Positions 7,596 through 59,526 of a DNA stretch of 64,000 bases are shown here, piece by piece (within the stretch, counting starts at the first letter, position 1; every line of letters begins with the position of its first letter). Source of the DNA: an uncultured Clostridium sp. GTDB lineage: Bacteria > Bacillota > Clostridia > TANB77 > CAG-508. The notes under the pieces are model-generated. The model was given only the letters and a program-made list of their open reading frames with translations, was not told the origin of the DNA and made no database searches. The stretch covers positions 16,117-80,116 of the forward strand of contig CAOKXF010000009.1 of assembly GCA_948473335.1 (NCBI GenBank). The letters are read 5' to 3'. The translations under genes were made by a program, and so were the position numbers.

Positions 7596-7675
7596 CATTG
7601 TTTTGGAAAATTATTAATTTATATTACTAATGAAAAATAAATAAATATATAATAGTAATTAAATATAAATGTATA

Positions 7676-7724
7676 AAAAAACCACCACTGGAAAAAATAA
7701 TAGAAATCGAAAGGTGGTTTTTTT
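7676..7724 (+). terminator. intrinsic terminator-like hairpin abutting the next start codon
   Basis: Perfect 11-bp stem aaaaaaccacc (7676-7686) / ggtggtttttt (7713-7723), T-run to 7724, ATG at 7725. Confidence 0.8.
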
Positions 7725-8408
7725 ATGACAAAACATATTATAAAAATCTCAGTAGCAATTTTGTTGATAATATCAACTACTATAGGAATATATTATATAT
7801 ATAAAAATCAACAAGTAGAAGCATTATCAAAATATGGTTCATCAGGACAAGAAGTACGACAAATACAAGAAAAACTAAAAAGATGGGGATATTATAATGG
7901 AAATATTGATGGTATATATGGTTCACAAACTACAGCGGCAGTAAAAGCATTTCAAAAAAAGAATGGACTTTCAGTAGATGGTATAGCAGGAAGTCAAACA
8001 TTGTCAGCAATGGGAATAACAAGTAATCAATCTTCATCAGGATCATCTTCAAGTAGACCATCAGATGTAAATTTAATTGCTAGGGCAATATATGGAGAAG
8101 CAAGAGGTGAAAGCTATGTAGGACAAGTAGCAGTTGGAGCTGTTATAATGAACAGAGTAAAAAGTAGCAAATTTCCTAATACAATAGCAGGTGTAGTTTA
8201 CCAAAAAGGTGCCTTTGATGCAGTTTCAGATGGACAAATAAATATGAACCCAGATAGTACAGCGAAAAAAGCAGCTCAAGATGCACTTAATGGTTGGGAT
8301 CCAACATATGGAGCAATTTATTATTTCAATCCAAATACAGCAACTAATGCATGGATTTGGTCAAGACCTATGACCATTACAATAGGAAAACATAGATTTT
8401 GTAAATAA
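7725..8408 (+). CDS. cell wall hydrolase with PG_binding_1 and SleB/Hydrolase_2 domains
   Basis: Signal/TM N-terminus; GSSGQEVRQIQEKLKRWGYYNGNIDGIYGSQTTAAVKAFQ; LIARAIYGEARGESYVGQVAVGAVIMNRV. Confidence 0.9.
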   Translation: MTKHIIKISVAILLIISTTIGIYYIYKNQQVEALSKYGSSGQEVRQIQEKLKRWGYYNGNIDGIYGSQTTAAVKAFQKKNGLSVDGIAGSQTLSAMGITSNQSSSGSSSSRPSDVNLIARAIYGEARGESYVGQVAVGAVIMNRVKSSKFPNTIAGVVYQKGAFDAVSDGQINMNPDSTAKKAAQDALNGWDPTYGAIYYFNPNTATNAWIWSRPMTITIGKHRFCK

Positions 8409-8506
8409 ATTGTTAGTAATAAGTAAATTGTTAGCAATTGAGAGGAAATCTATATGATTAAGAGATTTAAGAGGTTCTATAATTATTATGTAATAAATGA
8501 ATTTGC

Positions 8507-34097: not shown

Positions 34098-34480
34098 GTG
34101 CTTTTATTTTTTTTTATGTAATAAGTTCTCTTTTTAGATTTTTTTGAAAAACTTTATATAGCAAACAAGATGTTTTTTTATTTTTAACCTTAAAATTATA
34201 TAAAGAATGTATATCCGTAAGGAAAGAAAAAATAATAACACAAAAATATTGAAGAATTTTGTCATTAATGTAACAATAAAATAATAAAAATGTAATAATT
34301 TTTGTAAATAGAGCATCCTTAGCAAGGTATAGAAGTGGGATAATCTGATGAAAATAAAAGATATTGATTTTTGATTAAGATGGAGCGATAATAAAATTAA
34401 GTATATATAAAAAAGACACATAAAATATTTTAATTTAATTTATTTTATGCAATCTTATGCAATTGAAAGGAATGAAAAAC

Positions 34481-40400: not shown

Positions 40401-43400
40401 ATTATATAACATGGAAAGTAAATGGAAGTGACATAACAGGAAGTAGTGATTATTTATTAGTAACAATACCAAATAAAGGAACAACAAATGTAATAGTAAA
40501 AAATGAGCAAAAATATGTAAGAATATCAGGATATGTATATGAAGATGTACCAAATGGAAAAGACAATATAAGAAATGAATTATATGACACAAATTCACAA
40601 AGCAAAGACAAATTAGTAGAAGGAATAAGAGTAAGATTACGTAATTCAAGGACAGGAGCAATATATGAAAATTGGACAAACAGTAAAGGAGCATACTTAT
40701 TTGGAAGTAAAAATGAAGATGGAACATATTCAGCAGATAACATCTTATTAAGAGATATAAATAATTACTATGTAGAATTCATATATAATGGAATGAAATA
40801 TACTAACGTAGCGCCACAAATAGATAAAAATAATGGATCAAAAGCAATTGAAGGAGCATTTAGAGAACCATTTAATAATAAATATGCAACAATAACAGGA
40901 AATACAGCAAAAGGAAGCACAGGAGGATCAACAGGAAAAGCATTAAATGTAAATGGAGGTACAACAGCATCAATAACATATACACAACCAGAAGAACATA
41001 CATCACAAGTAACATATACAGAGGGACAAGAATATGCAAATAAGGACAAAGGAATAAAATTAAATGATTACTATGCATTAAGCAAATATCACATAAGTTC
41101 AACAACACAGCAATTAAAATACGGATTAGGTACAACATATGTTGCAGATAATGAAGAAATAAAAAATATAAACTTAGGAATTTTTGAAAGAGAACAAGTA
41201 GATTTAGCAATATCAAGTGATATTGAAGAAGTCAATGTATCACTACATGGATATACAAACACATATAATTATGCAGCGAGAAATCAATATGTAAAGAACA
41301 AAGGAGCATTTAGAACAGGAGTAAAATTTGGAGACAAATACTTGAATAGATACTCAAGAACAATATATCAATCAGCAGTAACGTATTTTGCAGAAGATAG
41401 AAATAATAACAAATTAGAAGTAAACGTATTGTATAAAGTTACATTATATAATAACTCACCATCTCTAGCTAGTATATTCAAAAAGATAAATAACTATTAT
41501 GACAAAGAATATACTCCACAAGAAGTATACTATGTATCAAAAGGAACAAAAACACCAATAACAACATGGAAGATAGGAAATCAGACATATGCAAATGGAA
41601 GATTAAAAGTTTTACAAGTAGAATTACCAAATACATACCTATCAGCAGGAGAAACAGCAGAAGTATATATAAGATATAAAGTAAGTGATGACACAGTATT
41701 AGGATTGATGAACCAAGAAGCAACATTACAAAATATGACAGAAATAGATACATATTCAACATTTACAAAAATATCAGATACATCTTATGCACATTATGCA
41801 AGTATAGATGAAAATTCAGCGCCAGGAAATGTTGTAGTAGAATTAGATGCAAATGACAGATTTATAAAAACAACATTTGAAGATGATACAGATATGGCAC
41901 CATCATTAAAATTACAATCAGATAAAAACAATATAATATCAGGAACAGTATTTGAAGATTCACAAACACAAGCAAGTAAAAATAAAAATGAAAGATTGGG
42001 AAATGGAATCTATGAACAAAATGAAAGAGTAGTTGAACATGCAAAAGTAGAACTATTAGAAGTATATGACAGTAATGACAACGTAAGTACTGATCAAATA
42101 GGTAGAATTAAATATGACAGTAATGGAAATCCAATAATTGCAAAACTATATCAATTCAGATTAAAAGAAGATGGAACAACAGAAGGAGTATTAGTAGATG
42201 CAGTGACATATACAGATAGCAAAGGAAATTATCAATTAATAGGACTAATTCCAGATGGATATGCAGTAAGATATACATATGGACAAGGAACAAAGATACA
42301 AGGAAAAGAAATTGATGCAAGGGATTACAAATCAACAATAATAACATCAGGGGAAATAAGAAAAGCATTAAATATACAAGCTGATAGTGCAATAATAGAA
42401 GGAAGAGGAAATCTATATTGGAATACAATACAAGAAAAAGATGGAAATGGAAACATAATAAGATATTCAGATGCAGCAGATGAAATATTAGAGAGAATAA
42501 AACAAGAACAAGAAGATGATGCAATAAATTATGCTACATTACAAGCAAGACCAAAAGATATGAAAGCACGTACAGCAGCATTTATAGTAGGAGTAGAGTT
42601 TGAAAATATTAATTCAGCATCAGATGTATACTTCAAAGATATGAATGGAAATATAGTAATGGATGAAGCAACAGGAGAACCGAAGGTAGACCCTAACTTC
42701 TATTCAGAAAATAAGAATATGGACTTTGGAATTATATATAGACCAGTAATAGATATAAAACTAGATAAAAACTTAACAAATATGTCAATACAATTAGGAA
42801 ATGGACAAATGTTAGTAAATGGAAATCCATATCAACAAGATTTACCATATACAAAAGCTATAGAAGATAGTATATATGTAGATATGGATGCAGACTTAAT
42901 ACAAGGTTCAGCGCTAAAAATGGAATATGAGATAAAATTAGTCAATGCTTCAGAAGTAGATTACAAATATACAACATTTGATGCAAAAGGAACAGCAGGA
43001 AGAAGATATTACTACTTTGGAGATAGTACAGGAGCAGAAAAAATAGATAAATATGTAAAACTTGTAGGAGATTATTTGGATGAAGAATTAGTTTATGATA
43101 TAAATGAAATGAATCAAGGATTACCAAAAGGATGGACTACAACGACAGCACAAAAATTATATGAAGAAGGTAGAATATCACAAGAAGTAAGAGATGTATT
43201 AATCTCTGAAAAAGAAAATATACTTACAACAACAGAATTCAGTGAAGGACTAGGAACAAGTAGTAATCCAAATATAGCAATAAGTAAGACAATAAGATAT
43301 CAAGTAAGCAAATTACTAGGTGCAAGAGATGAGTTAGTATTTACAAATGATGCAGAAATATTAGAATTATATGCAGTAGCAAGAAGATCAATTTTAAATA

Positions 43401-43588
43401 CTACACCAGGAAATTTAATACCACAACATGCGAAAGAACAAGATGAAGATAGTGTAAGCCTAACAATTATGCCACCAACAGGAGGGGTAAACTATTCACC
43501 ATATATAATTGCAGCAATATGTTCATTAACACTAGTTATGGTAGGAGTAATTTTAATAAGAAGAAAAATGCTAAGGACGGATAAATAG
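34481..43588 (+). CDS. giant surface protein 2, paralog of protein 1
   Basis: MKKICSILILIVLLLNSSLMILISQAVDA; same domain order; C-term MPPTGGVNYSPYIIAAICSLTLVMVGVILIRRKMLRTDK; divergent centre with GGTLNPGGTGTLQPINP repeats. Confidence 0.88.
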   Translation: MKKICSILILIVLLLNSSLMILISQAVDAVSEMISSEKDEIQSTQEVVLEKYVNYANELEKGTIVQLRVGVGLKNDANKEVYVKDRKVSIECPRISEKVPTRVEVIGKEAKYDNGTITVQETYENKLKYEGREEYTVILFYDADCYTENQEERMLNAKVLVEQTIETAEAKESVTVKGEATAQIAVRENVGTIVSVDYETGDIYNGYINSNIENGTAYDTEYQEKNKVTISNKNIAESFIVESNDVLGFQGEEIQNNRNLLYKGITLEKEDIKDILGANGEIRILNEENRVLEVINNEIEAAEDGKYTYNYQEPVEKIKLQIINIEKEGIIEFNTTKIIKGTLTQNVDLVKNRINVVGTKTTEKTILDEENKEEKVDEITTVYEENNLETVINIQNATQKISMDVNKKELTNNVQNNMTITATLEKNTAANRLFENPTVIIELPEEVEKVILNDVQVLHDLELSKQEAVVETNAEGKKVIRIALSGKQTQYTQQEDITKGTNILISATVMLKQNIQTKTSSIKMICNENVCEQEIKLIEKNQVAKKTTSKTEAEGTVVNQNGLKIATKVVAGDKILANNETIYEQQIIKYEVKVTNTTENNIENVKIVGKVPEGMTYVDLVVGGFYDDNYDFIPNTGLKQKEIEVGTLSAGQTETYYYEVKVNDLADTEQEKIVNSEIKVYIGENEISVYTLENIVQQGNIAVELKGLPGRSERNERIYFAKVSNIAKEDLQNVVVNIPFSANIKVKNVQIWGKEEGEYEKTIENNNVFVKFSNIQKLVNSSTLDKDGTGGIGFVLEENEVGIYITANLVNVEEDFEYIWEINTAATVTTSDGNIYKSNENRASGYIEAVKVTQESDKSGEELQVGEEITYTLEVENIGNVIPEWGEYTKVKFIDYIPNELEITSVEYNTNSVSIQEGNQVLVPRNVKLERHEIDEVNKKDNSNGARLQFDLCIPLREKSTITIKTKVRTTYSDIDIENFAMISGENIKTKKSNSIQNKIKGYKGTVIVDPDDPNLPIDPDNPDPPVDPDIPTEKEYTISGIAWVDENENGQREENEQRLSGIEVLLLDITNNKYLQDNNGRIITKITNNNGQYSFENVKEGKYYVIFKYNNDDYELTAYKKPGIGSTVNSDAMQREALIDSKNIYVGITDTIDLTSNKENIDIGLVKNKIFDLKVDKYIEKITVQNGKGTKQYTYSNEKIAKVEIPAKQIVGSILVVEYKIVVTNVGELTGTVNELIDEMPANLEFKSELNSNWYKTAGNNINNTNLSTQEIKPGESIETSIVLTKTLDDTIQTYTNVAKIGISDNSKHINDKNVENDVDKVDIIISIQTGTIGEYIGTIIATLLVIAVMLMIVLIIMKKFPTKNGIKLFILLGLIVTILPMTLNISNGEGTTDDGHTVISRDPVSGKFNEGEFECISPGLSQCKGSHYYVESGRNMIERWEEGDTVYGASVSLSKATNSIEYKYIEKNSQGYNVYGPFRFSVSADGATPSYTMEVKGIMNITTGEVVNAPFETIDKDGNTTTVGANKDIYIKVPLNVVAIDSVKVTGKATVSFTRTIHEKWEQYYTCDYSTCSWCAGKNVQDMKSTQPIEITYQETGTYEASDSKEWTTEVPKTLRIEKIDKDNNSIVLPNVKFILKREIINTGTGGGTLNPGGTGTLQPINPGGTLNPGGTGTLQPINPGGTLNPGGTGTLQPINPGGTLNPGGTGTLQPINPGGTLNSGEIGTLQQMDARGGIIDSIGPGTIQPIYPGGTEPSKPGENQGGTTSSVVYVKQNPTDLSISYVENEEEATEFITDINGIIQVAGLKSGKYTFIEKENQHHGYNNIKNINSTRTYTTGIEHLIIYRTPNKEMLGNLDIEKQNNVNSAIKLSNVEFVLLNDTGTKYLKVQVEGKEGFQAGTEKKLIGTTKVTKQEYTDNYEEATIFVTDANGKIHIEDLALQSSGTNQNDETDILGYVIKEIHNPHYGYEVDSNYITWKVNGSDITGSSDYLLVTIPNKGTTNVIVKNEQKYVRISGYVYEDVPNGKDNIRNELYDTNSQSKDKLVEGIRVRLRNSRTGAIYENWTNSKGAYLFGSKNEDGTYSADNILLRDINNYYVEFIYNGMKYTNVAPQIDKNNGSKAIEGAFREPFNNKYATITGNTAKGSTGGSTGKALNVNGGTTASITYTQPEEHTSQVTYTEGQEYANKDKGIKLNDYYALSKYHISSTTQQLKYGLGTTYVADNEEIKNINLGIFEREQVDLAISSDIEEVNVSLHGYTNTYNYAARNQYVKNKGAFRTGVKFGDKYLNRYSRTIYQSAVTYFAEDRNNNKLEVNVLYKVTLYNNSPSLASIFKKINNYYDKEYTPQEVYYVSKGTKTPITTWKIGNQTYANGRLKVLQVELPNTYLSAGETAEVYIRYKVSDDTVLGLMNQEATLQNMTEIDTYSTFTKISDTSYAHYASIDENSAPGNVVVELDANDRFIKTTFEDDTDMAPSLKLQSDKNNIISGTVFEDSQTQASKNKNERLGNGIYEQNERVVEHAKVELLEVYDSNDNVSTDQIGRIKYDSNGNPIIAKLYQFRLKEDGTTEGVLVDAVTYTDSKGNYQLIGLIPDGYAVRYTYGQGTKIQGKEIDARDYKSTIITSGEIRKALNIQADSAIIEGRGNLYWNTIQEKDGNGNIIRYSDAADEILERIKQEQEDDAINYATLQARPKDMKARTAAFIVGVEFENINSASDVYFKDMNGNIVMDEATGEPKVDPNFYSENKNMDFGIIYRPVIDIKLDKNLTNMSIQLGNGQMLVNGNPYQQDLPYTKAIEDSIYVDMDADLIQGSALKMEYEIKLVNASEVDYKYTTFDAKGTAGRRYYYFGDSTGAEKIDKYVKLVGDYLDEELVYDINEMNQGLPKGWTTTTAQKLYEEGRISQEVRDVLISEKENILTTTEFSEGLGTSSNPNIAISKTIRYQVSKLLGARDELVFTNDAEILELYAVARRSILNTTPGNLIPQHAKEQDEDSVSLTIMPPTGGVNYSPYIIAAICSLTLVMVGVILIRRKMLRTDK
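39425..39679 (+). repeat. 51-bp in-frame tandem repeat, 4 near-identical copies plus 1 degenerate copy
   Basis: Unit encodes GGTLNPGGTGTLQPINP (17 aa); starts at 39425, 39476, 39527, 39578; degenerate copy 39629-39679. Confidence 0.95.
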
Positions 43589-43737: not shown

Positions 43738-43909
43738 AAAAAAGACAAAAATGTGTAATAAAAGACATAAAATGAGTATCCGTAAGTGATAACAGAAAAA
43801 AGCGAAAAGACTACAAAACCTTGCCATTTACTATAGTAAGAAAATATACTAAAATAATTATGTATAGCTAGTATACATATACTATACTGGAAAAATGGAG
43901 GAAATAAAA

Positions 43910-46900
43910 ATGGCAAGAAACAAAAGAAGTAAAATAATAATGGGAGTAGCAGTAATGCTAATGATAGTCGCATTAGTGGTAGCAATAGTAATAGACCAAA
44001 TAGCAAAAAGAAATAGAGAGAATGTAGGACTATCATCAGAATTAGCAAGAGCGAAAACATATAATCGAGTAGAAGAAGGAGAAGAAGCAGTCGAAGGAAC
44101 AGAAAATGTAAAATTCGATGCATTCTTTTTACGTGATTTAGAAGGAAATGGATATGCAACAGGAGTAAGAGGAACATGTAAAGAGATAGGAAAAGAAGAT
44201 ACCTTGTATATGGAAATAAATGTCCAAACAGCAGGGTATTTAAAAGATGCCAAAATAACAATAGATGGAAAGAATTTTTACTTACAAACAGCACTTCCAA
44301 AAGATGAACAATTAGCAAATAGCTATATAGGAAATAATATAAAAGAGATAAGATTTAATAATTTAACAAATGGAACCCAAAAGTTATTAACAGGAATTGT
44401 AAGAAGTGGAGATTATTCATATTCATCAACAATAAATGATGCAATAGCAAGTAATATAAATAATTATTCAAGAGAAGATAATAAAATAATATTAACAGGA
44501 ACATATGTAGGAGAAGATGGAACAGAAATAGAAATAAGAAAAGAAGTACCATTTACAATGGACTGGTATGGAACAACAAAAGCAAGTATCTATTCAACTA
44601 CACAAAATAAATACATAGGTAGTTGTATAAACGAAGAAGAAGGAACGCTAAACTTAGAATTTACAGTATACACAGAAGAAATAGATAAAAAGCTAATATT
44701 AAAAACAAACCATACAGAAGGAGAAATACCAGAATTAAATGGATATGCGCCAATATTAGTAACATACACAGGAACAAATGCAACATTCAATTATGACTCA
44801 ACAACTAGAAGATTTACAATAGATAGAACATCAACAGTAGGAGAAGATGGAAGTATAATAAGTAGTTTATCAAGTTCAAATAGTTATAGTATAAAAATAA
44901 CATATCCACTAGAAGCATATCAAACACTAGAAGCAAAGACAGTGCAACTACAAATACCAGTAAATACCTATTATGAAGGATATAATAATCAAAATGATGA
45001 ATTCACAAATCCATATAAATCAAATATAGCCAAAACAACAATAGTATCAAATTACAACAATTATCAAGGTAGTATAACAAATTTTTATATAGAAGTAGGA
45101 AAACAAGGATATAGTCCGAACTACAGAAATCTAATTTCAAAGCAAAAGCCACTAAAGATATATAATGGAAAAAGTGAAGGAGAAAAAGATGATATATATA
45201 CAGTACAATGGGGAGTATATATAGGAACAAATGTAGAGCTTGGAAATATAGTAATGAAAGAAAACAAAGACGGAGAGAAACAAGAAACAGATCAATTTAT
45301 AAAAACAAATGGAGAAATAGAAAGTGCAGAGGATGTTATAACAAATGTAGGAATATATTTCTCAGGAGCAGATACAGTATTAGGGTCAAATGGAGAAATA
45401 AAGATATATGACGAAGATACAAACAATTTATTAGTTACATTTACAAAAAACAATTGGAACAAATATACATCTAGTAATCCATATAAATATGAAACACCAG
45501 TAAAACATATAAGAATAGAAACAAGTAAGGTAATAAATAATGGAGTCTTTTTAGATGTTTACAATATAAAGGAAATAGATGATGAAGCTATAACAACCAA
45601 ATACGAAAGAGAAGAATTTGATAAATTACAATATATAAAATCAACATTAGTAGGACATATAGCAAATAGATATATACAAACAAAAGAGAGCCAAGCATAT
45701 TATGAGGTACCAATATCAATAGCAACAATAGGGATAAGTAAAAAAACAATATCAACACAAACAACAGAGAAAAGAGTAAATATAACAATAAAAGCAGAAG
45801 CAAAAGAAAATCAAAATCAAGTAAAATGGAAAAATGGAACATTTTTAATAAAATTTCCAACAGAGTTAATAGATGTGCAAATAAACAGCATTAGTATAAA
45901 TAATGGAAGTGTAAAAATAGACAGTTATGAAGTGGCAGAACAAGATGGACAAATATTTATAAAAATAGTAACAAAGAATATAACATCTCAAGATTACACA
46001 ATAACAATAGATGCAGATTTATCACCAGACCCAAGAATAGCAACAACTACAAGAAGTATAGAATTATATGCAACAAATGAAAATGAAACAAACTATTATT
46101 ATCAAGAAGCAGATATATATGACATAAATAATAATTTAAATACAATAGAAAAAGTAAATCATACAACAACAAGTATAAGTATGGTATCACCAAATTTACT
46201 ATTGACAAATCAAATAGCAACAAATTATGATGAAAAGGGAGGTATAATAATATCACCTCAAATAGCAGATATAAAGCCCAAATATGCAGTAGTAGACCAA
46301 GAACAACAAGAAGAGCAAACAGCAGAAATAGGAATACAATTAAGAAATAACTATGCGAGTACAATAAGTGAGATACAAATATTAGGAAAAATACCATTTG
46401 AAGGAAATACATATGTAATAAGTGGAAACAAACTAGGTTCAACATTTACAACAAAAATGATAAAGACAGGAATACAAGTGCCAGAAGAATTAAGAGAAAT
46501 AGTAAAAGTATATTATTCAGAAAACGAAAGTGCAGACAAAGATTTAAACAAAGCAGAAAATAACTGGAAAACAGCAGAGCAGGTAGAAAGTTGGGACAAT
46601 ATAAAAACATTTTTAATAGATTTAGGTGACTATGTAATGCCAACAGGAAAAGAATTTATATTTAATTATACAGTAAAAATACCAAATGGATTAGCATTCA
46701 ACAAGGTATCATATAGCCATCATGGAGTATATTTCTGTTTAGATACAGAACAAGGAAAATATAGGACGCAAACAGAACCAAATAGATTAGGATTTAGAAT
46801 AGCAGAAAAATACAACATAGAAATACAAAAGTATCAAAAAGGAAGAGAAAAAATAGTTCCAGGAGCAACATATAGTATAACAGAAATAATACAAAATGAA

Positions 46901-49900
46901 GATGGAACAGAAGAAAAAGGTCAAATAAAAACAGCTACAACAAATGAAGAAGGAAAATTGCGAATAGGAAATTTATATGTGGGACAAATATATGAAATAA
47001 AAGAAACACAAACACCAGGAGACTATGAATTAAACCTTGACGCCATAAGATTTACCAGCAATATCGATGAACATAGAATATTAACAGTAAACAAAATAGA
47101 AGGAACAACAAGAGAAGAAATAGCAGCTACAAAAGAAGAAGGAGAGAACTATAAAGTTTTAGTAAAGGTAGAGGATGAAGTAAAAGCAACTCTAAAAATA
47201 ACAAAGAAAGAAAAAGATACAGACAAAAAGCTAAAATCTGTAAAATATGTAATCACAGGATATAATTTACTAACAACAGGACAAGCACTAACAACAGATG
47301 CAAATGGAGAAGCAAGTATAAAAGGATTATCGATAGGACAAGAATATGTATTAAGAGAAGTAAAGGCAGAAGGATATTATTTAGGAGAGGCTGTAACATT
47401 CAAGATTACAAATAATAATGGAGCATATGGAACAGAAATTATTGGAGGAACAGTAAAAGATTACAATATGATAGAAGAAAACCATATACCCCAATTAAGC
47501 ATAACATTAGAGAATGAAAAAATACCAACATACGATTTAGAAATAACAAAAATAAAAAGAACAACAGATGTGCAAATGAGCGATAAAGAGGGAGAAGAGA
47601 GCTCAACAGAAGAACAAGTAACATATTTGGAAGGAGCAAGATTTAAATTATACAAAAATAATGAATTGATTGGTGAGTACATAACAAATGACAAAGGGAA
47701 AATAGTTATTAGCAATTTGTATCAATATATAGAAGAGAAAGATGAAAATGCAACATATACATTAAAAGAAGTAATCGCTCCAGAAGGATATTCAAAAGTA
47801 AAGGATATAAAATTTAAAGTTCAAGAAGACGAAGGACTAAAATTCATAAATATAGATGAAAAGCAAAGTAAATATACAGCAGAAGGAAATACAGTAAAAC
47901 TAATAATTGAAGATAGTCCATTATTTAAATTAATAAAAAAAGATGGAGAAACAGGAAAAGTATTGTCAAACATAAAATTTGTAATCTATAATATAGATGA
48001 TGGAGAAAAGCCAGCAACAAATAGTAAAGGAGAAATCTTAGGAACAAAAGAGCTAATCAATGGAAAAGAATATTATACATTATTAACAGATAGTAATGGA
48101 GAAATTACAGTTGATTTACCAGAAGGATTATATAAAGCAGTAGAAGTAGAGGTACCAGATAAATATGATAAGTCAAACAGTAGTCACTATTTTAGCATAG
48201 GTAGTTCAAGTAAAGGCAAAGAAATTTTAGTAGCAAAATGGACAAAAACAGTAGGAGATGAAATAAATTGTATAATAGAAACATCAGATGGAGGATACTT
48301 GATAGGAGGATATTTCAAAAGCCCAAGTATAGACTTAGGAAATGGAGAAGTGTTAAATAATAATGGAAGTAGACCTTATAGTGATGGATTGATAATTAAG
48401 TATAGTGAGAGTGGAGAAGCAGAATGGGGAAAGGCAGTAGGAGGAAGTGATGGTGAGCAAATAACATGTATAATAGAAACAAGAGATGGAGGATATATTG
48501 TAGGAGGATATTTCTATAGTAGTAGAATAGATTTAGGAAATGGAGAAGTGTTAAGTAATTATGATACGAGAGGATATTCTGATGGAATGATAATAAAGTA
48601 TGATAGTGAAGGTAATGTAGAATGGGGAAAGGCAGTAGGAGGAAGTGATGGTGACTATATCAGGTGTATAACAGACACACAAGATGAAGGATACATTGTA
48701 GGAGGATATTTTAATTCAAGTAGTATAGACCTAGGAAATGGAAAAGTATTAAATAATAATAGAACAAGTTATTTAGATGGAATGATAATTAAGTATGGAG
48801 TAGATGGAGAAGTAGAATGGGGAAAGGCAGTAGGAGGAAGTGATGGTGAGCAAATAACATGTATAATAGAAACAAGAGATGGAGGATATATTGTAGGAGG
48901 ATATTTCTATAGTAGTAGAATAGATTTAGGAAATGGAGAAGTGTTAAGTAATTATGATACGAGAGGATATTCTGATGGAATGATAATAAAGTATGATAGT
49001 GAAGGTAATGTAGAATGGGGAAAGGCAGTAGGAGGAAGTAGTAGTGACCAAATAATATGTATAATAGAAACAAGAGAAGGAGGATACTTAGTAGGGGGGA
49101 ATTTTAGGAGTGAACATATATTTTTAGAAAATGGAATTAATCTCTATAATACTTCAGATAGTGACCCATATGGAGGAGAGAAATATTATAATGGAATGTT
49201 GATAAAGTATAACAATAATGGAGAAGCAGAATGGGGAAAGGTAGTAGGAGGAAGCAGTAGCGATTATATAAATTGTATAATAGAAACAAGAGAAGGAGGA
49301 TACTTGGTAGGAGGATATTTTAATTCAAGTAGTATAGACCTAGGAAATGGAAAAGTATTAAATAATAATAGAACAAGTTATTTAGATGGAATGATAATTA
49401 AGTATGGAGTAGATGGAGAAGTAGAATGGGGAAAGGTAGTAGGAGGAGACCAGGGTGACCAAATAACGAGTGTATTAGAGACGATAGATGGAGGATATGT
49501 TGTTGGAGGAGCATTTAAAAATGTTAAGTTAGAAAATGGAATAGAGTTAAATGGTGAGATAAGCATAATCAAGTATAGCACAATGGTTATGCCAGATATA
49601 AAAATAGAGAATGCAAAGTCTATAGGAGGCAACAGCCGAGACTATATAAATTGTATAGTAGAGACATCAGATGGAGGATATTTGACAAGTGGATATTTCA
49701 AAAGCCCAAGTATAGACTTAGGAAATGGAGTAGTGTTAAATAGTAAAGATAATAATATAAACTATGCTGATGGAATGATAATCAAGTATAGTGAGAGTGG
49801 AGAAGTAGAATGGGGAAAGGTAGTAGGAGGAAGTAGTGACGATTCTATAAATCGTATAATAGAAACAAGAGATGGAGGATATTTGGTAGGAGGATATTTT

Positions 49901-52900
49901 GCAAGTAGTAATATAGACTTGGAAAATGGAGTAGTATTAAAAAATAATGGAAGCACGAATTATTATGATGGAATGATAGTCAAATATGATAGTGAAGGTA
50001 ATGTAGAATGGGGAAAGACAATAGGAGGAGATAATACAGACCAAATAACATGTGTAGTAGAAATACAAGATGGAGGATATGTAGTAGGAGGAAATTTCTA
50101 TAGTCAAAGTATAAACTTAGAGAATGGAGTAGTTTTAAATAATCATAATATAAATAATAGTTCTGATGGAATGATAATCAAATATGATGAACAAGGTAAT
50201 TTAGAATGGGGAAAGACAATAGGAGGAGATAATACAGACCAAATAACATGTGTAGTAGAAACACAAGATGGAGGATATGTAGTAGGAGGATTTTTTTACG
50301 GTAATAGTATAGATTTAGGAAATGGAGTAGTATTAAATAAAACTTTAAGTAGTATGAATGGAATGATAATCAAATATAAAGCGAACGGAGAAGCAGAGTG
50401 GGGAAAAGTAGTAGGAGAAAACAGTATGGAACAAATAACTTGTATAACAGGTACATCAGATGGAGGATATGTAGTAGGAGGATATTTTATAAGTAATAGT
50501 ATAGATCTAGGAAATGGAGTAGTGTTAAATAACAATAGTATTTCAAGTTTTTATGGAGATGGAATGATAATCAAATATAATAGTGAAGGTAATATAGAAT
50601 GGGGGAAAGTGATAGGAGAATCATATACTGAACGTATTAATTGTATAGTAGAGACAAGAGATGGAGGATATATTGTAGGAGGATATTTTAACGGTAATAG
50701 TATAGAGACAGAAATAAACCATGGAGGTTATGATGGAATAATCATTAAGTGTGATACATATGGTAATACAGAATGGATAAAAGCAATAGGAGGAAGCAGA
50801 AATGATTATATAAACTGTATCATAGAAACACAAGATGGAAAATATGCTGTAGGAGGGTATTTCGAAAGTAGTAGTATAGATTTAGGAAATAGAGAAGAGT
50901 TAAATAATAGTGGATATTGTAATGGAATGTTACTAGAAGTAACAGGAAAAATGGAAACACCAGAAATACAAGAATTAGTAATTGAAAATGTAAGAAAAGA
51001 ATTCAAAATAACAACAAAAGTAGAAGAAATAGATGGAGTAAAAGGAGGAACAATTTCTGGAGAAGGTAAAATAGCATATGAAAAAGTAAAATATGGAGAT
51101 AGTAGCACAAAAGAAATAATAATGATACCAAACAAAGATTATGAAATCATGGGAATAACAGTAAATGGAAAAGAATATCCATTTATAGCAAATGAAGATG
51201 GAACATATACAATGCCACAATTTGAAAATATGGTTGAGAATAAACATATAGTAGTAACATTTGCAATGAAAGACAATAAAATAACAATAAACAAAGTAGA
51301 TAGAAGGACAAGAGAGCCATTAGCAGGAGTGAGATTCAGATTAGACCAAATAGAAGAAAGAACAGAACCAGAAAATGTAATAGGAGAACTAACAAATAAT
51401 GGACAAACATATATAGAAATAGATAAAACAAATGAAATAGCAGATGTATTAGGAAAACTAACGAATAATGGAACATATTATTTTGTAGAGCAAGAAGGAA
51501 AATATATACCAACAAATAGTAAAACATATCAAACAGCAAATGGAGGAACAACAGGAAAACACAATACAATAGCAAATTCATATATAGAGATAGATTTAAG
51601 TAATAAAGAAGGAAAATATGTAGTATGTATAAATGCAGAGGTATCAAGTGAAAGTGCAGATAGAGGATATGCAACAATAACAGAAACAACAATAGCACCA
51701 GCATATAATTCAACAAATGGACAATTTATATATATATCAGGAACACAAGGAGCAAAAGAATATACATCAGCAATATTAGAAGGAGGAAAAACATACTATT
51801 TACACTTAGGATATAGAAAAAATGGAAGTGTAGACACAGGAAAGGACCAAATAATATTTAATAGTATAAAAGTATATGGGACAACAAGTACAACATATAA
51901 CTTTGTAAGTACAGAAGGAAAATATGAATCAAATAATCAGAGACAAGACAATACAGTAGCAAATTCATATATACCAATAGATTTAAGAAGCTATAAAGGC
52001 AAATACAACCTAATAGTAAATGCGCAAGTATCAAGTCAAAATGGAAATGATATAGGATATGTAACAATAACAGAAAATACTGATAGACCAGCATATAGTA
52101 GTTCGACAGGAAGATTAATATACATATCAGGAGAACAAGAAGCAAAAGATTACACAACAGTACTAGAAGGAGGAAAACAATATTACTTACATCTAGGATA
52201 TTACAAAAACGCAAGTACATCAACAGGAGATGACAAATTCACAATAAATAATATAGAAGTAAAATTAAACGACTCAGAGCTATACCATACAGAAGTAGAA
52301 ACAAACAGCCAAGGACAAGCAATAACACAAATACCATTTGGAAAATATAGTATAACAGAAATAAAAGCACCAGAAGGATATAATATATTAGCAGAACCAT
52401 TAATAATAGAATTTAGAGCAAATGGAGAACACGAATTCACAATAGAAAACCAAAAAAGTGCCAAGGTAAAAGTAAACCACTACAAAGCAATAAAAAATGA
52501 AGATGGAACATATACATATACAGAAGAAAAAGTAGCAGAAAGTCAAATATTAGAAGGAAAAGTAGAAGAAGACTATACAAGTATTCCACATTTAGACTTA
52601 AGCCAATATAAACTAATAAAAAATGAAAATGGGGAATATGCAATACCAGAAAATGCAACAGGAAAATTTGCAGAAGAACAAATAGAAGTAATATACTATT
52701 ATGAGGAAAAACAAATACCGTTAAAAGTACACCATTACATAGAAGGAACAGAAGAAAAAGTACCCCTAAAAGATGGAACAGAGGCAGAAGACATAGTAAA
52801 AGGAGGAAAAGAAAATGAGGAATATACAACAGAAGCAATAAGTGGAGAAAAATTAAGTGAAGAATACGAATTAATAGAAATACCAGAAAATGCAAATGGA

Positions 52901-54841
52901 ACATACACAGGAGATGAAGTAATAGTAACATATTATTATAGAAGAAAAGCAAAAGTAATAACACATCACTACTTAGAAGGAACAGAAGAGAAAATAACAA
53001 TAGAAGGAGTAGAAGTAGAAGATGAAATACAAACAGGAAAAATAGGAGACACATTTACAACAAAAGTATATGAAAACTTACCAGAATACTATGAAAATAC
53101 ATCTTCAAGTGAAATAACAAGTGGAAGGTATACAGAAGAAACAATAGAAGTAATCTATTATTATAAATTAAAAGAATATAATTATAGAGTAGAATACTAC
53201 TATAATGACCAAAAAGATGAAGAAGCAACAGAAAAAGGAAAAGAAGAATATGGAAAAGAAATAGTAGGATATGTAAGTAAACCAAAAGAAGGATACAAAT
53301 TCAAAAAAGAAGAAAATGTGCCACTAAAAATAACAGAGAATGAAGAAAATAATGTAATAAAAATTTACTATGTAACAGATAACATAAGTTATACAGTAAA
53401 CTATTTAGAAGAAGATACAGAAGAAGAATTACATGAACCAAAGATAGTAGAAAATCAAGAATTTGGAGCAACAATAACAACAAGTAGCGAAATAATAGAC
53501 ATTGAGGGATATGAATACAGTAGTATTGATAGAGACAAATTAACAATAGGAATAGACGAAACCAAAAATGCAATTAACATCTATTATATTAAAAGATCAG
53601 ATTTAAAATATACAGTAAACTACTTAGAAAAAGACACAAATGAAATATTACATGAAGCAAAGACAGTAGAAAACCAAGTATTTGGAGGAATAATAACATC
53701 AAGTACAGAAGTAATAGAAATACCAGGATATAAATATGATAGTGTAGACAAAGAAAGCATAACTATACAAGTAGATGAGACACAGAATATAATAAATATA
53801 TATTATACAATAAGGACAGACATTAAATATAAAGTAGAATACTACTATAATGGAATACAAGATGAGGAAGAAACAGAAGAATATGAAGGAACATATAAAG
53901 AAGCAATAGAAAATTATGAAGACAAGATAAAAGAAGGATACATATTAGTAGAAGTAGTAGGAATACCACTAATAATAGAAGCAGAAGAAGAAAAAAATAT
54001 AATCAAAGTATATTATGCAAAAGAAACAACAGCAACAGTAAAATACATAGACAAAACAACAAATGAAATAATAGAAGAAAGAACAGAAAAAGGATATGTA
54101 GGAAAAGAATTTGTAACAGAAGCAAAAGACTTTGAAAACTATGTATTAGTAGAAGAGCCAGAAGAAAAAACAGTAATAATGGAAGAAGACGAAGTAATAG
54201 TAAGATATTATTATGTACATGTATCAAGTGGAGTAATAGAAAAACACATAGATATGAACACAGACGAAATACTATACAATACAACACATGAAGGAAACGA
54301 AGGAGACGAATATACAACAAAACCAAAAGAATTTAAAGGATATAGTCTAGTAGAAGAAAAATATCCAGAAAATGCAGAAGGAAAAATGAAAAGGGAGGTA
54401 ATAACAGTAAATTACTATTACAAGAAAAAAGAAGCAGCAACAGTAATCATAAAATACATAGACAAAGAAACAAATGAAGAAATAAAAGAAAAGATAGTAA
54501 TAGAAGGATATGAAGGAGATGAATATAAGACAGAACGAAAAGAACTAGAAGGATATGAATTCGTTGAAGTAGTAGGAGAACAAGAAGGAACAATGAAAGA
54601 AGAAAAAGAAATAATCTATTATTATCAAAAAGTCAAAGAACCAGAAATACCAGGAGAAGGAGGAGCAGACATAGAAGAACCAACAGAACCAAAAGATCCA
54701 ACAGCAACAGACAAAGAGATACCATCAGCAGGACTAACAAAGGAACAAATAGCGATAATAGTTGTAACAACAATGACAGCAATAACAGGAATACTAGTAA
54801 TTGTGGGTATTAAAGGAATAAAACTAGACAAAAAACATTAA
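43910..54841 (+). CDS. giant surface protein 3 (SpaA/Cna_B-like domains, 14 propeller-like repeats, about 10 MucBP-like repeats, C-terminal anchor)
   Basis: RBS ggagga before ATG 43910 (track start 43895 lies on the RBS); N-terminal TM KIIMGVAVMLMIVALVVAIVI; repeats DGGYIVGGYF...DGMIIKY...VEWGK; IxVxYYY MucBP-like repeats; C-term IPSAGLTKEQIAIIVVTTMTAITGILVIVGIKGIKLDKKH. Confidence 0.88.
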   Translation: MARNKRSKIIMGVAVMLMIVALVVAIVIDQIAKRNRENVGLSSELARAKTYNRVEEGEEAVEGTENVKFDAFFLRDLEGNGYATGVRGTCKEIGKEDTLYMEINVQTAGYLKDAKITIDGKNFYLQTALPKDEQLANSYIGNNIKEIRFNNLTNGTQKLLTGIVRSGDYSYSSTINDAIASNINNYSREDNKIILTGTYVGEDGTEIEIRKEVPFTMDWYGTTKASIYSTTQNKYIGSCINEEEGTLNLEFTVYTEEIDKKLILKTNHTEGEIPELNGYAPILVTYTGTNATFNYDSTTRRFTIDRTSTVGEDGSIISSLSSSNSYSIKITYPLEAYQTLEAKTVQLQIPVNTYYEGYNNQNDEFTNPYKSNIAKTTIVSNYNNYQGSITNFYIEVGKQGYSPNYRNLISKQKPLKIYNGKSEGEKDDIYTVQWGVYIGTNVELGNIVMKENKDGEKQETDQFIKTNGEIESAEDVITNVGIYFSGADTVLGSNGEIKIYDEDTNNLLVTFTKNNWNKYTSSNPYKYETPVKHIRIETSKVINNGVFLDVYNIKEIDDEAITTKYEREEFDKLQYIKSTLVGHIANRYIQTKESQAYYEVPISIATIGISKKTISTQTTEKRVNITIKAEAKENQNQVKWKNGTFLIKFPTELIDVQINSISINNGSVKIDSYEVAEQDGQIFIKIVTKNITSQDYTITIDADLSPDPRIATTTRSIELYATNENETNYYYQEADIYDINNNLNTIEKVNHTTTSISMVSPNLLLTNQIATNYDEKGGIIISPQIADIKPKYAVVDQEQQEEQTAEIGIQLRNNYASTISEIQILGKIPFEGNTYVISGNKLGSTFTTKMIKTGIQVPEELREIVKVYYSENESADKDLNKAENNWKTAEQVESWDNIKTFLIDLGDYVMPTGKEFIFNYTVKIPNGLAFNKVSYSHHGVYFCLDTEQGKYRTQTEPNRLGFRIAEKYNIEIQKYQKGREKIVPGATYSITEIIQNEDGTEEKGQIKTATTNEEGKLRIGNLYVGQIYEIKETQTPGDYELNLDAIRFTSNIDEHRILTVNKIEGTTREEIAATKEEGENYKVLVKVEDEVKATLKITKKEKDTDKKLKSVKYVITGYNLLTTGQALTTDANGEASIKGLSIGQEYVLREVKAEGYYLGEAVTFKITNNNGAYGTEIIGGTVKDYNMIEENHIPQLSITLENEKIPTYDLEITKIKRTTDVQMSDKEGEESSTEEQVTYLEGARFKLYKNNELIGEYITNDKGKIVISNLYQYIEEKDENATYTLKEVIAPEGYSKVKDIKFKVQEDEGLKFINIDEKQSKYTAEGNTVKLIIEDSPLFKLIKKDGETGKVLSNIKFVIYNIDDGEKPATNSKGEILGTKELINGKEYYTLLTDSNGEITVDLPEGLYKAVEVEVPDKYDKSNSSHYFSIGSSSKGKEILVAKWTKTVGDEINCIIETSDGGYLIGGYFKSPSIDLGNGEVLNNNGSRPYSDGLIIKYSESGEAEWGKAVGGSDGEQITCIIETRDGGYIVGGYFYSSRIDLGNGEVLSNYDTRGYSDGMIIKYDSEGNVEWGKAVGGSDGDYIRCITDTQDEGYIVGGYFNSSSIDLGNGKVLNNNRTSYLDGMIIKYGVDGEVEWGKAVGGSDGEQITCIIETRDGGYIVGGYFYSSRIDLGNGEVLSNYDTRGYSDGMIIKYDSEGNVEWGKAVGGSSSDQIICIIETREGGYLVGGNFRSEHIFLENGINLYNTSDSDPYGGEKYYNGMLIKYNNNGEAEWGKVVGGSSSDYINCIIETREGGYLVGGYFNSSSIDLGNGKVLNNNRTSYLDGMIIKYGVDGEVEWGKVVGGDQGDQITSVLETIDGGYVVGGAFKNVKLENGIELNGEISIIKYSTMVMPDIKIENAKSIGGNSRDYINCIVETSDGGYLTSGYFKSPSIDLGNGVVLNSKDNNINYADGMIIKYSESGEVEWGKVVGGSSDDSINRIIETRDGGYLVGGYFASSNIDLENGVVLKNNGSTNYYDGMIVKYDSEGNVEWGKTIGGDNTDQITCVVEIQDGGYVVGGNFYSQSINLENGVVLNNHNINNSSDGMIIKYDEQGNLEWGKTIGGDNTDQITCVVETQDGGYVVGGFFYGNSIDLGNGVVLNKTLSSMNGMIIKYKANGEAEWGKVVGENSMEQITCITGTSDGGYVVGGYFISNSIDLGNGVVLNNNSISSFYGDGMIIKYNSEGNIEWGKVIGESYTERINCIVETRDGGYIVGGYFNGNSIETEINHGGYDGIIIKCDTYGNTEWIKAIGGSRNDYINCIIETQDGKYAVGGYFESSSIDLGNREELNNSGYCNGMLLEVTGKMETPEIQELVIENVRKEFKITTKVEEIDGVKGGTISGEGKIAYEKVKYGDSSTKEIIMIPNKDYEIMGITVNGKEYPFIANEDGTYTMPQFENMVENKHIVVTFAMKDNKITINKVDRRTREPLAGVRFRLDQIEERTEPENVIGELTNNGQTYIEIDKTNEIADVLGKLTNNGTYYFVEQEGKYIPTNSKTYQTANGGTTGKHNTIANSYIEIDLSNKEGKYVVCINAEVSSESADRGYATITETTIAPAYNSTNGQFIYISGTQGAKEYTSAILEGGKTYYLHLGYRKNGSVDTGKDQIIFNSIKVYGTTSTTYNFVSTEGKYESNNQRQDNTVANSYIPIDLRSYKGKYNLIVNAQVSSQNGNDIGYVTITENTDRPAYSSSTGRLIYISGEQEAKDYTTVLEGGKQYYLHLGYYKNASTSTGDDKFTINNIEVKLNDSELYHTEVETNSQGQAITQIPFGKYSITEIKAPEGYNILAEPLIIEFRANGEHEFTIENQKSAKVKVNHYKAIKNEDGTYTYTEEKVAESQILEGKVEEDYTSIPHLDLSQYKLIKNENGEYAIPENATGKFAEEQIEVIYYYEEKQIPLKVHHYIEGTEEKVPLKDGTEAEDIVKGGKENEEYTTEAISGEKLSEEYELIEIPENANGTYTGDEVIVTYYYRRKAKVITHHYLEGTEEKITIEGVEVEDEIQTGKIGDTFTTKVYENLPEYYENTSSSEITSGRYTEETIEVIYYYKLKEYNYRVEYYYNDQKDEEATEKGKEEYGKEIVGYVSKPKEGYKFKKEENVPLKITENEENNVIKIYYVTDNISYTVNYLEEDTEEELHEPKIVENQEFGATITTSSEIIDIEGYEYSSIDRDKLTIGIDETKNAINIYYIKRSDLKYTVNYLEKDTNEILHEAKTVENQVFGGIITSSTEVIEIPGYKYDSVDKESITIQVDETQNIINIYYTIRTDIKYKVEYYYNGIQDEEETEEYEGTYKEAIENYEDKIKEGYILVEVVGIPLIIEAEEEKNIIKVYYAKETTATVKYIDKTTNEIIEERTEKGYVGKEFVTEAKDFENYVLVEEPEEKTVIMEEDEVIVRYYYVHVSSGVIEKHIDMNTDEILYNTTHEGNEGDEYTTKPKEFKGYSLVEEKYPENAEGKMKREVITVNYYYKKKEAATVIIKYIDKETNEEIKEKIVIEGYEGDEYKTERKELEGYEFVEVVGEQEGTMKEEKEIIYYYQKVKEPEIPGEGGADIEEPTEPKDPTATDKEIPSAGLTKEQIAIIVVTTMTAITGILVIVGIKGIKLDKKH
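48422..48646 (+). repeat. 225-bp perfect direct repeat, first copy
   Basis: Identical by eye to 48815-49039 (offset 393 bp = 131 codons, two propeller repeats). Confidence 0.88.
48815..49039 (+). repeat. 225-bp perfect direct repeat, second copy
   Basis: See 48422-48646. Confidence 0.88.
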
Positions 54842-55088: not shown

Positions 55089-55346
55089 AGCAATATATAA
55101 AACTGAGCAATAATAATATTTATTAAAAAATTTCCAGGTATAAAATGAAAAATTAAGACAAGAGCTTGCGTTTTCAGACAATATGTAATAAAATAAGAAA
55201 AACAATTTGTCCAAAAAACAAAAAAACAAATTGTAAATATCACAAAAAGTAAAAAACTTTTTTTGAAAGTAAACACAAAAAGACAAAAAAATAAAAAAAA
55301 ACATACTAAAATATTACCAAAAAGAAAGTTTATAGAGGTGGTAAGG

Positions 55347-57803
55347 ATGTTTCAAAATATACAATACGAAGAAGTAGGACAAGAAGAGAGTAGCAAAATA
55401 GATATAATCAATATAATAAAAAATATATTCACAACAAAAAATATATTAATATACACAATAGCATTTTTAGTATCAACAATAAGTTTAGGAGGAGAAGTAT
55501 CTCCATTCAGTATAGCACTAGTAGGAGCAAGCTTTTCAGCAGGGATACCAGCATTTGGAATAATAATAATATCAATAATAGGAAACATTGTAGGATTTGG
55601 AGCAACAGGAGGACTAAATTATATATTAACACTACTAATGCTAATGATAACATATGTAATAAAGAGACCAACATACAATGAAGAAAACAAAAACGAGAAA
55701 ATTAAATTAGGAAAAAGATTATTTATAAGTGTATTAACAGTAATGATATGCAGATATGTAATAAGTACATTCACAATATATAACCTAATAGCGAACATAA
55801 CAAACGCACTAATAGTAGTAATATTTTATAAAATTTTCACAAATTCATTAGGAGTATTGGAAGAAGTAAACGTAAAAAAAGCATTTTCACTAGAAGAAGT
55901 AATGGGAGCAAGCCTAATACTAGCAGTATCAATATCAGCATTAGGAGACATAGGAATATTTGGACTATCAATAAGAAATATATTAAGCATATTTATAGTA
56001 TTAATATTAGGGTGGAAGAATGGAGTACTAATAGGAACAACATCAGGAGTAACAATAGGAGCAGTATTAGGAATAATAGCTCAATATGAACCAAGTGTGG
56101 TAGCACTATATGCAATATCAGGAATGCTAGCAGGACTACTAAACAGATTTGGAAAGATAGGCGTAATAATAGGATTTATAGTAGGAAATGGAATATTAGC
56201 ATACATATCAAATGGAACAACGTTAGATGCACAAATACTAAAAGAAATTTTAGTAGCAGCAATAGGACTATTAGCAGTGCCAACAAGAATAAATATAAAT
56301 ATAGAAGAATTCATGAATAGTTCAAGATTATTACCAGCATATTCAAACAAAACATTAGTAACAGGACAAGCAACTGTGGACAAGCTAAATGTTGTAACAG
56401 AGACAATAGAAGATATAGCAAAAACATATGAAAATGACAAAGAACTAGAAGAATTAATTCAAGAGAAAACAATAGAAGATAAAAATAGAGATTTATTTAT
56501 ATCAGAACTATTAAATGAACTAGATGATATAAAAGATAATATGTTATATGATGATTTAAGTAAAGTTCCAAACAAAATAGTAAATGAGATATATACAATA
56601 TTAATAGACAAGCAACAAATAAGCAGAAAAGATTTATTAAAAGCATTTGCAAAGTTTAATAGTTATATAATAGGATTTGATGATGAGAAAGTAAGTAAAT
56701 ACTTAGAAGACAACATAAGACAAGTTATAAACAAAATAAATTCAGCATATAGAGTAAGTAAAGCAAACTTTATATGCCAAGAAAAAATAAAAGAAAACAA
56801 AAAGAGTATGCAATCACAATTAGGACAGATTTCAAAAGCAATAACAAATATAGCAACTCAAATACAAGAAGAAGTAGTAGAAGAAAAACAAGATTACAGA
56901 GAAGAAAAAGAAAAGATATTATTACTATTAAAACAGAAAGACATAAAAATAGAAGAACTATGGATTAGAAGGAAAAAAGGAGACAGATACTTTGTAGATA
57001 TATATGTAAATATACTAAATCAAGGTATAGTAAATAATGACATAGAGAAAATAGAAAAGATATTAACAGAAGTACTAAGAGATAAAATAAAATTAAATGA
57101 AAGAACATCAAAAATAACAAAGGGAAAAAGTTTATTAAGTTTTACATCAACAGACAAATATGAAATGAGCATAGGGATAACTGGAAGTACAAAAAGTAAA
57201 AGTACAGTATCAGGAGATTCAATACTAAATATAAGACTAAATGATGGAAAAAATTTAATAGCAATAAGTGATGGAATGGGATCAGGACCAGAAGCAAGAA
57301 AAAGTAGTCAAATAGCAATAAAAATGTTAGAAAGATTATTATCATCAGGATTTAACCAAAATATATCAGTAGAATTAATAAACAAAGCAGTATTAAATAA
57401 TACAGAAGAAATATTTGCAACTCTAGATATTGCCATAGTAGACTTATATAAAGGAAACATAGAATTTATCAAAAATGGAGCAGCGCCAACATACATAAAA
57501 AATGAAAGCAAAGTGCAAATAATAAAAACACTAACATTGCCAACAGGAGCATTAGAAGAAATTAAATTGACAACATATGACAAAGACTTAGTAAAGGGAG
57601 ACATAATAGTAATGTGTAGCGATGGAATAATAGATTCAAATGTTGAATATAAAAATAAGGAGTTATGGTTAAAATATTTACTAGAAGATATGGAAGCACA
57701 AAATCCACAAAAGATGGCAGATATTATATTAAAAGAGGCAATAGATAACAATTATGGAATAAATAAAGATGATATGAGTGTTATAGTTCTAAAAGTAAAA
57801 TAA
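55347..57803 (+). CDS. spoIIE: stage II sporulation protein E (PP2C-type phosphatase)
   Basis: N-terminal multi-TM region; PP2C: LIAISDGMGSGPEARKSSQIAIKMLERLL, DIAIVDLYKGNIEFIKNGAAPTYI, DIIVMCSDGIIDSN. ATG 55347 after gaggtgg. Confidence 0.93.
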   Translation: MFQNIQYEEVGQEESSKIDIINIIKNIFTTKNILIYTIAFLVSTISLGGEVSPFSIALVGASFSAGIPAFGIIIISIIGNIVGFGATGGLNYILTLLMLMITYVIKRPTYNEENKNEKIKLGKRLFISVLTVMICRYVISTFTIYNLIANITNALIVVIFYKIFTNSLGVLEEVNVKKAFSLEEVMGASLILAVSISALGDIGIFGLSIRNILSIFIVLILGWKNGVLIGTTSGVTIGAVLGIIAQYEPSVVALYAISGMLAGLLNRFGKIGVIIGFIVGNGILAYISNGTTLDAQILKEILVAAIGLLAVPTRININIEEFMNSSRLLPAYSNKTLVTGQATVDKLNVVTETIEDIAKTYENDKELEELIQEKTIEDKNRDLFISELLNELDDIKDNMLYDDLSKVPNKIVNEIYTILIDKQQISRKDLLKAFAKFNSYIIGFDDEKVSKYLEDNIRQVINKINSAYRVSKANFICQEKIKENKKSMQSQLGQISKAITNIATQIQEEVVEEKQDYREEKEKILLLLKQKDIKIEELWIRRKKGDRYFVDIYVNILNQGIVNNDIEKIEKILTEVLRDKIKLNERTSKITKGKSLLSFTSTDKYEMSIGITGSTKSKSTVSGDSILNIRLNDGKNLIAISDGMGSGPEARKSSQIAIKMLERLLSSGFNQNISVELINKAVLNNTEEIFATLDIAIVDLYKGNIEFIKNGAAPTYIKNESKVQIIKTLTLPTGALEEIKLTTYDKDLVKGDIIVMCSDGIIDSNVEYKNKELWLKYLLEDMEAQNPQKMADIILKEAIDNNYGINKDDMSVIVLKVK

Positions 57804-57996: not shown

Positions 57997-59526
57997 ATGA
58001 GAAGTCGAAGTGAAAGAAGAAATAGATATTCAGATGACAATAAATTAAATTATACAAAAGTATTAGCTGTAATAATTGCAATAATAGTAGTAATAGTATT
58101 TGTAATGGCAATTAGACAATTATTAACAATGGATATAATACCTAAAAAAGGAAATGAATATTTTGCTCTATATGAACAAGACAAATGGGGAGTAATAGAT
58201 AATAGAGGAAATGTTGTAATAGTACCATCATATGCTGAAATGATAATAATACCAAATCAAAAACACGATATATTCATTTGTACATATGAGATAAATAATA
58301 AAACAGGAGAATATAAAAGTAAAGTCTTAAATAAGAAAAATAAAGAAATATTCCAAGAATATGAACAAGTAGAAGCATTAGAAAATTATGATAAGGCACA
58401 AAACATATGGTATGAAGAAGACATATTAAAAGTAAAACAAAATGGAAAATATGGACTAATCAATTTTAAAGGGACTAAAATAGCAGAATGTGAATATGAC
58501 AAAATATATGCACTAAAAGGAATAGAAGGAAGCATAATAGTAGAAAAAGACGGAAAGCTAGGATTATTAGATAATACGGGAAGAAAAATAATAGATACAG
58601 AATACAAAGAAATACTAGGAATAGGAACAAAAAGTGACGAAGGATATATTACAGTTGATGAACAGGGAAAATATGGAGTAATAAGTTACACAAAAGAACA
58701 AATATTACAAAATAAATATGAATATATAGAACCAATATATGGAAAAGATTTATTTGTAATAAAAGACAAAAATCAACAACAGTTAATAAATGCAAATGGA
58801 GAAATAATACTAGACAGTGGATATAGTAAAATTGAATCAATATTGAAAAATGAAACACAAGGAGTAATTTTTGAAAGAGAACAAAAATATGGAATAATGG
58901 GAACAGACAGAATGATATTAGTAAAACCTCAATATGACAGTTTAAAAGAATTAGAGAATGGAAAGATTGTAGCAGAAAAAGATGGAAAAAAAGGAATTAT
59001 AAATATGCAAGATACAGAAGAATTACCATTTAGCTATAAAAGTATAAACTATAACAAGAAAGCAAACCTATATATAGCAGAAGACACAGACAATAATACA
59101 TCAATAATAGATCAAGATTATAATATAAAACTAATAGGAATACTAACAGAATTCAATGAAGAAGATGAATATATAAGGATGAGAATAGGAACAGAATATC
59201 AATATTACAATTTCAAATGTGAAGAAACAAGTAATATAGATGTATTAAAAGGTAATACACTATTCTTAAAACAAGAAAATGGAAAATATGGATATGTAAA
59301 CAAAAAAGGAGAAACTGTAGTTGACTATATATATGATGATGCAACAGAGCAAAATATATATGGATATGTAGCAGTAAAGAAAAATGGACTATGGGGTTCA
59401 ATAGATAGAGATGGGAAAGAAATAGTTGCACCAAAATATGAACTAACAAATAACATAATAATAAATTTCATAGGAAAGTGGCATTTAGGAGAAGATTTAA
59501 ATATGAAATACTATTGTGAAAAGTAA
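57997..59526 (+). CDS. membrane-anchored WG-repeat protein
   Basis: N-terminal TM VLAVIIAIIVVIVFVMAI; about 10 repeats such as QDKWGVIDNRGNVVIVPSYAEM, NGKYGLINFKGTKIAECEYDKI, NGKYGYVNKKGETVVDYIYDDA. Confidence 0.85.
   Translation: MRSRSERRNRYSDDNKLNYTKVLAVIIAIIVVIVFVMAIRQLLTMDIIPKKGNEYFALYEQDKWGVIDNRGNVVIVPSYAEMIIIPNQKHDIFICTYEINNKTGEYKSKVLNKKNKEIFQEYEQVEALENYDKAQNIWYEEDILKVKQNGKYGLINFKGTKIAECEYDKIYALKGIEGSIIVEKDGKLGLLDNTGRKIIDTEYKEILGIGTKSDEGYITVDEQGKYGVISYTKEQILQNKYEYIEPIYGKDLFVIKDKNQQQLINANGEIILDSGYSKIESILKNETQGVIFEREQKYGIMGTDRMILVKPQYDSLKELENGKIVAEKDGKKGIINMQDTEELPFSYKSINYNKKANLYIAEDTDNNTSIIDQDYNIKLIGILTEFNEEDEYIRMRIGTEYQYYNFKCEETSNIDVLKGNTLFLKQENGKYGYVNKKGETVVDYIYDDATEQNIYGYVAVKKNGLWGSIDRDGKEIVAPKYELTNNIIINFIGKWHLGEDLNMKYYCEK

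Follow-up and report, generated by a model that had tools for sequence, protein, structure and literature searches.

Two candidate tandem seven-bladed beta-propellers in a giant adhesin-like protein of an uncultured Clostridia bacterium

The C-terminal domain of CylK forms a seven-bladed propeller in crystals (PMC8916777), and WRAP (Npun_R6612 of Nostoc punctiforme, PDB 2YMU), with its 14 near-identical blades, crystallised as two seven-bladed rings (PMC6805158). Propellers also occur in adhesion: the propeller of Bap1/RbmC, closed by a Velcro strand that the adhesin needs in order to work, binds biofilm polysaccharide (PMC10102183). Fibrillar adhesins in turn commonly have SpaA as a stalk domain (PMC8286594). 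Tandem 7 + 7 propellers, as in WRAP, Aip1 and BT4663, and recent blade amplification are already known. Here we identify what is almost certainly a double propeller, one that no Pfam model fits, in a multi-copy adhesin family of uncultured Clostridia.

The window, a stretch of 64,000 nucleotides from an uncultured gut-type Clostridia bacterium, contains one very long open reading frame with the following features.

43895-54841, + strand: giant surface protein, a single open reading frame of 3648 aa
45935-48240, + strand: upstream SpaA (prealbumin-like stalk) domains, four Pfam matches
48218-48247, + strand: single strand leading into ring 1 (KEILVAKWTK), the Velcro partner for R7, predicted strand at AlphaFold2 residues 7-16
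48254-49591, + strand: ring 1, blades R1-R7, starting at 48254, 48446, 48644, 48839, 49037, 49253 and 49448
49553-49630, + strand: junction of the rings, with the last R7 strand EISIIKYSTMVMP followed by the leading strand of ring 2, DIKIENAKSIGG (49595-49624); predicted strands at AlphaFold2 residues 453-464 and 466-475
49631-50950, + strand: ring 2, blades R8-R14, starting at 49631, 49832, 50030, 50228, 50420, 50621 and 50795
52430-54838, + strand: seven MucBP domains (Pfam) and C-terminal anchor, a tail shared with the paralogues

From its N-terminus the chain runs through a hydrophobic signal or membrane anchor, an unassigned stretch of about 1000 aa, SpaA domains, the double propeller, further SpaA domains with two related domains of about 120 aa, and seven MucBP domains to a terminal IPSAG motif, a transmembrane segment and a basic tail (KGIKLDKKH), the last three common to the paralogues. 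Pfam recognises six SpaA and seven MucBP stretches, and such a series of stalk domains along one long secreted protein is a feature of fibrillar adhesins; the host genome encodes six sortases. The first-pass annotation had placed the repeats in a MucBP-type adhesin, and the stalk domains, the signal and anchor ends and the sortases agree with it; judged from sequence, the SpaA and MucBP domains and the genomic sortases support a surface-anchored fibrillar adhesin. We infer display through a sortase, with the reservation that IPSAG instead of the canonical LPxTG makes this mode of anchoring uncertain. NCBIfam returned a single match, to internalin J in the MucBP region, with a score far under its cut-off, and we discarded it.

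Two parts of the protein are without a Pfam match. The N-terminal region (43895-46000, + strand), about 700 aa, contains a motif (KFDAFFLRDL...RGTCKEIG) that recurs in relatives and could be the adhesin head. Downstream of the rings (51350-52300, + strand) lie the two related stretches of about 120 aa (ANSYIxIDL...YLHLGY). The adjoining frame at 34457-43588 (+ strand) encodes a further adhesin-like protein of 3043 aa with SdrD_B and DUF11 domains and an internal tandem of GGTLNPGGTGTLQPIN; it looks like two fused adhesins, because a membrane-anchor-like stretch stands in mid-protein directly before a signal-like one, the true end being MPPTGG and a transmembrane segment. Downstream, by eye, are look-alikes of a SpoIIE-type phosphatase (55263-57803, + strand) and a WG-repeat protein (57997-59526, + strand).

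Split at the EWGKxxGG motif, the array consists of exactly 14 repeats in one open frame (48254-50950), and a blade HMM recovers 14 of 14 units, most full units scoring 99-117 bits, with R13 at 74, R14 at 54 and R7 at 30, all far beyond chance. Blades are about 65 residues long and 34-100% identical to one another. The first-pass annotation had read 48236-50950 as 14 repeats arranged 7 + 7, and both the HMM count and the break between units 7 and 8 bear this out. It had also described R7 as shortened and followed by a non-repeat linker, and R14 as ending in the same way. R7 indeed lacks the EWGK strand and continues into EISIIKYSTMVMPDIKIENAKSIGG (about 49553-49630), and R14 stops without EWGK at about 50950; the linker is nonetheless not foreign to the repeat, since its second half, DIKIENAKSIGG, replaces the EWGKxxGG strand and opens ring 2. 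An EWGK-like strand stands before R1 as well (LVAKWTKTVG), just upstream of and spanning the start formerly given to the array. Because R7 and R14 lack EWGK and one extra copy leads each set, each ring has seven EWGK-type strands (one leading plus six) for seven blade bodies, which is the strand count of a Velcro-closed propeller. In a 27-row alignment of homologous arrays, each of the 12 junctions inside the rings keeps the EWGK tryptophan in 22-27 of 27 homologues. At the 7/8 junction the linker strand takes its place, and this junction is the same across the alignment, in which the L003 row has 6 + 7 blades. At the column of the ring 1 leading strand, 15 of 27 have tryptophan.

From this alignment (the window and 26 homologues), AlphaFold2 predicts four strands per repeat plus an inserted short hairpin, with a mean pLDDT of 89.5, and models both leading strands (residues 7-16 and 466-475); the pTM of 0.71 leaves the mutual arrangement of the two rings undefined. 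Ring closure was judged by this strand pattern and by Foldseek matches to closed rings. Against the PDB, CylK ranks first (E 2e-19; 7fh6, rmsd 4.4 over 457 columns), followed by the tandem-ring proteins BT4673, BT4663 and Aip1, and also a seven-bladed lectin. The whole-chain TM to CylK is 0.40 when normalised to the query, where a match to one ring of two would be expected to give about this value, and the single-ring model of a relative reaches a TMq of 0.68 at rmsd 3.6. The model favours tandem seven-bladed propellers, for which the first-pass annotation had named an AlphaFold model as a check.

Might the blades instead form an open solenoid, or one ring of 14? Similar blades could in principle run on continuously, and L085 and L093, the two arrays that diverge most, show 14 units without an obvious 7/8 linker. 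We nevertheless find this scarcely credible: the Velcro features fall precisely between units 7 and 8, paralogues with one ring have seven units and end in the same way, the predicted strand pattern and its CylK match speak against it, and WRAP is a precedent, its 14 blades having crystallised as 7 + 7 (PMC6805158). From the Velcro anatomy, the predicted fold and its match to CylK, sequence homology to CylK, and the recurrence of 14 or 7 units among relatives, we conclude that the 14 repeats almost certainly fold as two tandem, separately closed seven-bladed beta-propellers.

CylK is also found by sequence (E 7e-23 with a profile, aligning mainly to ring 2, and 3e-8 with a single sequence). 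SBBP repeats are of propeller type too, and the first-pass annotation had likened the array to them; this likeness finds no support, as PF06739 has no match in the whole genome (E<=1e-3) or in the Pfam scan of the protein (E<=1). Pfam matches on the isolated array (MoaF, Toxin-JAB1, DUF2690, MenC_N and Reg_prop) were set aside, because each adds up many weak matches to repeats and no individual stretch exceeds the threshold. Plasmids of Bacteroidota, haloarchaea, a methanogen and Aneurinibacillus encode distant homologues of 23-32% identity, pointing to a broad unnamed superfamily; among phages there is one match only, an unannotated 5-kb record.

That CylK is the closest solved relative by both sequence and fold raises the idea that the rings are enzymes as well. 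We regard this as very improbable: in CylK the propeller and the calcium beta-roll on its N-terminal side enclose the active site, which needs residues from both (PMC8916777), whereas the upstream neighbour here is SpaA and the beta-roll of a CylK-type alkylating enzyme, the partner such a role would call for, is absent. Moreover, the conserved blade positions (glycine, tryptophan, KY, hydrophobic) recur in each of the blades and seem to be structural.

How constant is the number of blades? Scanning 84,980 species genomes turned up 46 loci, almost all of them in Clostridia MAGs, and a search of 57 relatives gave matches in 8, plus the host's own genome. In that genome, genome searches found five more paralogues of the locus, on contigs C1, C8, C11, C19 and C22, two of them with a single ring. 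Within the class the distribution is patchy, the double-ring profile matching 11 of 291 sampled genomes at 1e-10. Units were counted with an iterative HMM and gaps were read by eye, so the counts are partly manual, and some of the loci are not independent of one another. Among 34 complete arrays, from relatives, paralogues and the window, 14 units occur in 27, 7 units in three, 8 units in three and 13 (6 + 7) in one, as follows.

14 units: the window, L001, L002, L004-L013, L016-L021, L023, L025, L030, L077, L078, L084, L085, L093
7 units: L080, L081, L034
6 + 7 units: L003, 5986-8565
8 units: L029, 6013-7560; L036, 5998-7506; L037, 6040-7542

The four arrays in the last two lines are possible natural ring-size variants within one family. 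For the eight-unit array L029, AlphaFold2 gave one low-confidence unit and closure by the remaining units; the alignment did not cover that unit, so the model is no test of eight-blade closure. Five distant proteins (L045, L094, L096, L097 and L098) have seven units with weak scores and stand outside the tally of 34. In three further loci the frame is broken inside the blade array (L014 at about 8393-8425, L022 at about 7667-7705, L028 at about 7883-7891), at places with no obvious homopolymers; assembly error, decay or on/off variation could be responsible.

The sequences of the blades are less constant, and two exact repeats stand out in the window.

48421-48646, + strand: 226-nt tract, blade R2 = R4, identical to 48814-49039
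48698-48827, + strand: 130-nt tract, 3' parts only of R3 and R6, identical to 49307-49436

We read the first as a recent intragenic copy and the second as a conversion tract covering part of a blade. The identity of R2 and R4 might also be an artefact of short-read assembly, in a draft genome of 25 contigs where several paralogous arrays lie at contig ends. We think this improbable: the reading frame is unbroken, 26 other arrays likewise total 14 units, and ten other arrays also contain exact tracts, of 60-214 nt (for example 214 nt in L004, 147 nt in L078 and 108 nt in L012). Between proteins, no positional orthology of blades was found (47.4% identity at the same position vs 47.0% at different positions), and no duplication of one ring into the other is visible as the source of the 14, since a blade of ring 1 resembles its counterpart in ring 2 no better than blades at unlike positions resemble each other. 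The exact tracts and the missing positional orthology, set against a within-array identity of 63% in the window, point to conversion or independent amplification in each gene, with the count kept. A 537-nt exact match between L077 (contig C11) and L078 (contig C19), outside the propeller, suggests conversion between gene copies too.

What might these rings do? In the explanation that we propose, each blade would be a meander of four strands, the second and third separated by a small hairpin of variable sequence (SxSIDLGNGxVL), and the lone N-terminal EWGK-type strand would complete the last blade, giving Velcro closure of each ring. The pair, with SpaA stalk domains on one side and MucBP on the other, would be part of the shaft of a fibrillar adhesin anchored at the surface, and would present two multivalent discs, held away from the cell, to a host or microbial glycan or protein, much as in Bap1/RbmC. 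Gene conversion would swap blade sequence, while selection for ring closure, as we infer, would maintain seven blades per ring. We consider this explanation as a whole, with its closed rings, ligand display, blade conversion and selected count, quite probable.

The adhesin architecture and the Bap1/RbmC precedent suggest that the rings most likely bind a ligand. Standing in mid-chain and not at the tip, flanked by SpaA and MucBP stalk domains, they could instead be rigid spacers without a ligand of their own, leaving binding to the N-terminal region of about 700 aa, which without a Pfam match could be the head. At the DNA level, however, the rings of the own-genome paralogue L077 are about 76% identical to those of the window, vs 82-88% for the C-terminal stalk in its best-aligned pieces; the rings thus diverge faster than the stalk, which is only suggestive evidence against spacers. 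The single-ring paralogues L080 and L081 are compatible with both readings. On balance we think spacers somewhat unlikely and prefer ligand-binding rings. A bolder extension, which we offer as a speculation that is rather doubtful, is that gut Clostridia adhesins shuffle blades within and between genes as exchangeable recognition cassettes, with closure fixing 7 + 7: a surface-diversification system in which topology sets copy number. The arrays are in any case natural data on propeller evolution, in which blades convert and diverge fast and 7 or 14 units are retained, and the rare cases of 6 and 8 units are material for asking how ring size is set.

Compared with known systems, the closest likeness is to the CylK propeller (PDB 7fh6, 7ron), which shares the seven-bladed ring, sequence homology, the best fold match and long internal blade loops; CylK, however, joins just one ring to a calcium beta-roll and is an enzyme of cyanobacterial natural product synthesis, whereas here two rings stand in a giant adhesin with no beta-roll. 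WRAP likewise has fourteen recently amplified blades in two seven-bladed rings, but its blades are WD40, shorter and practically identical, while ours belong to another blade family, vary far more and carry an explicit Velcro strand per ring. The BT4663/BT4673 ectodomains and Aip1 share two consecutive rings in one chain and appear as fold matches, yet they are only about 10% identical and are sensory or actin-binding proteins. Bap1/RbmC of Vibrio cholerae, finally, places a Velcro-closed propeller within a secreted modular adhesin, as here, but with one eight-bladed ring in a Gram-negative biofilm matrix protein; the likeness shown here is one of architecture, not of homology.
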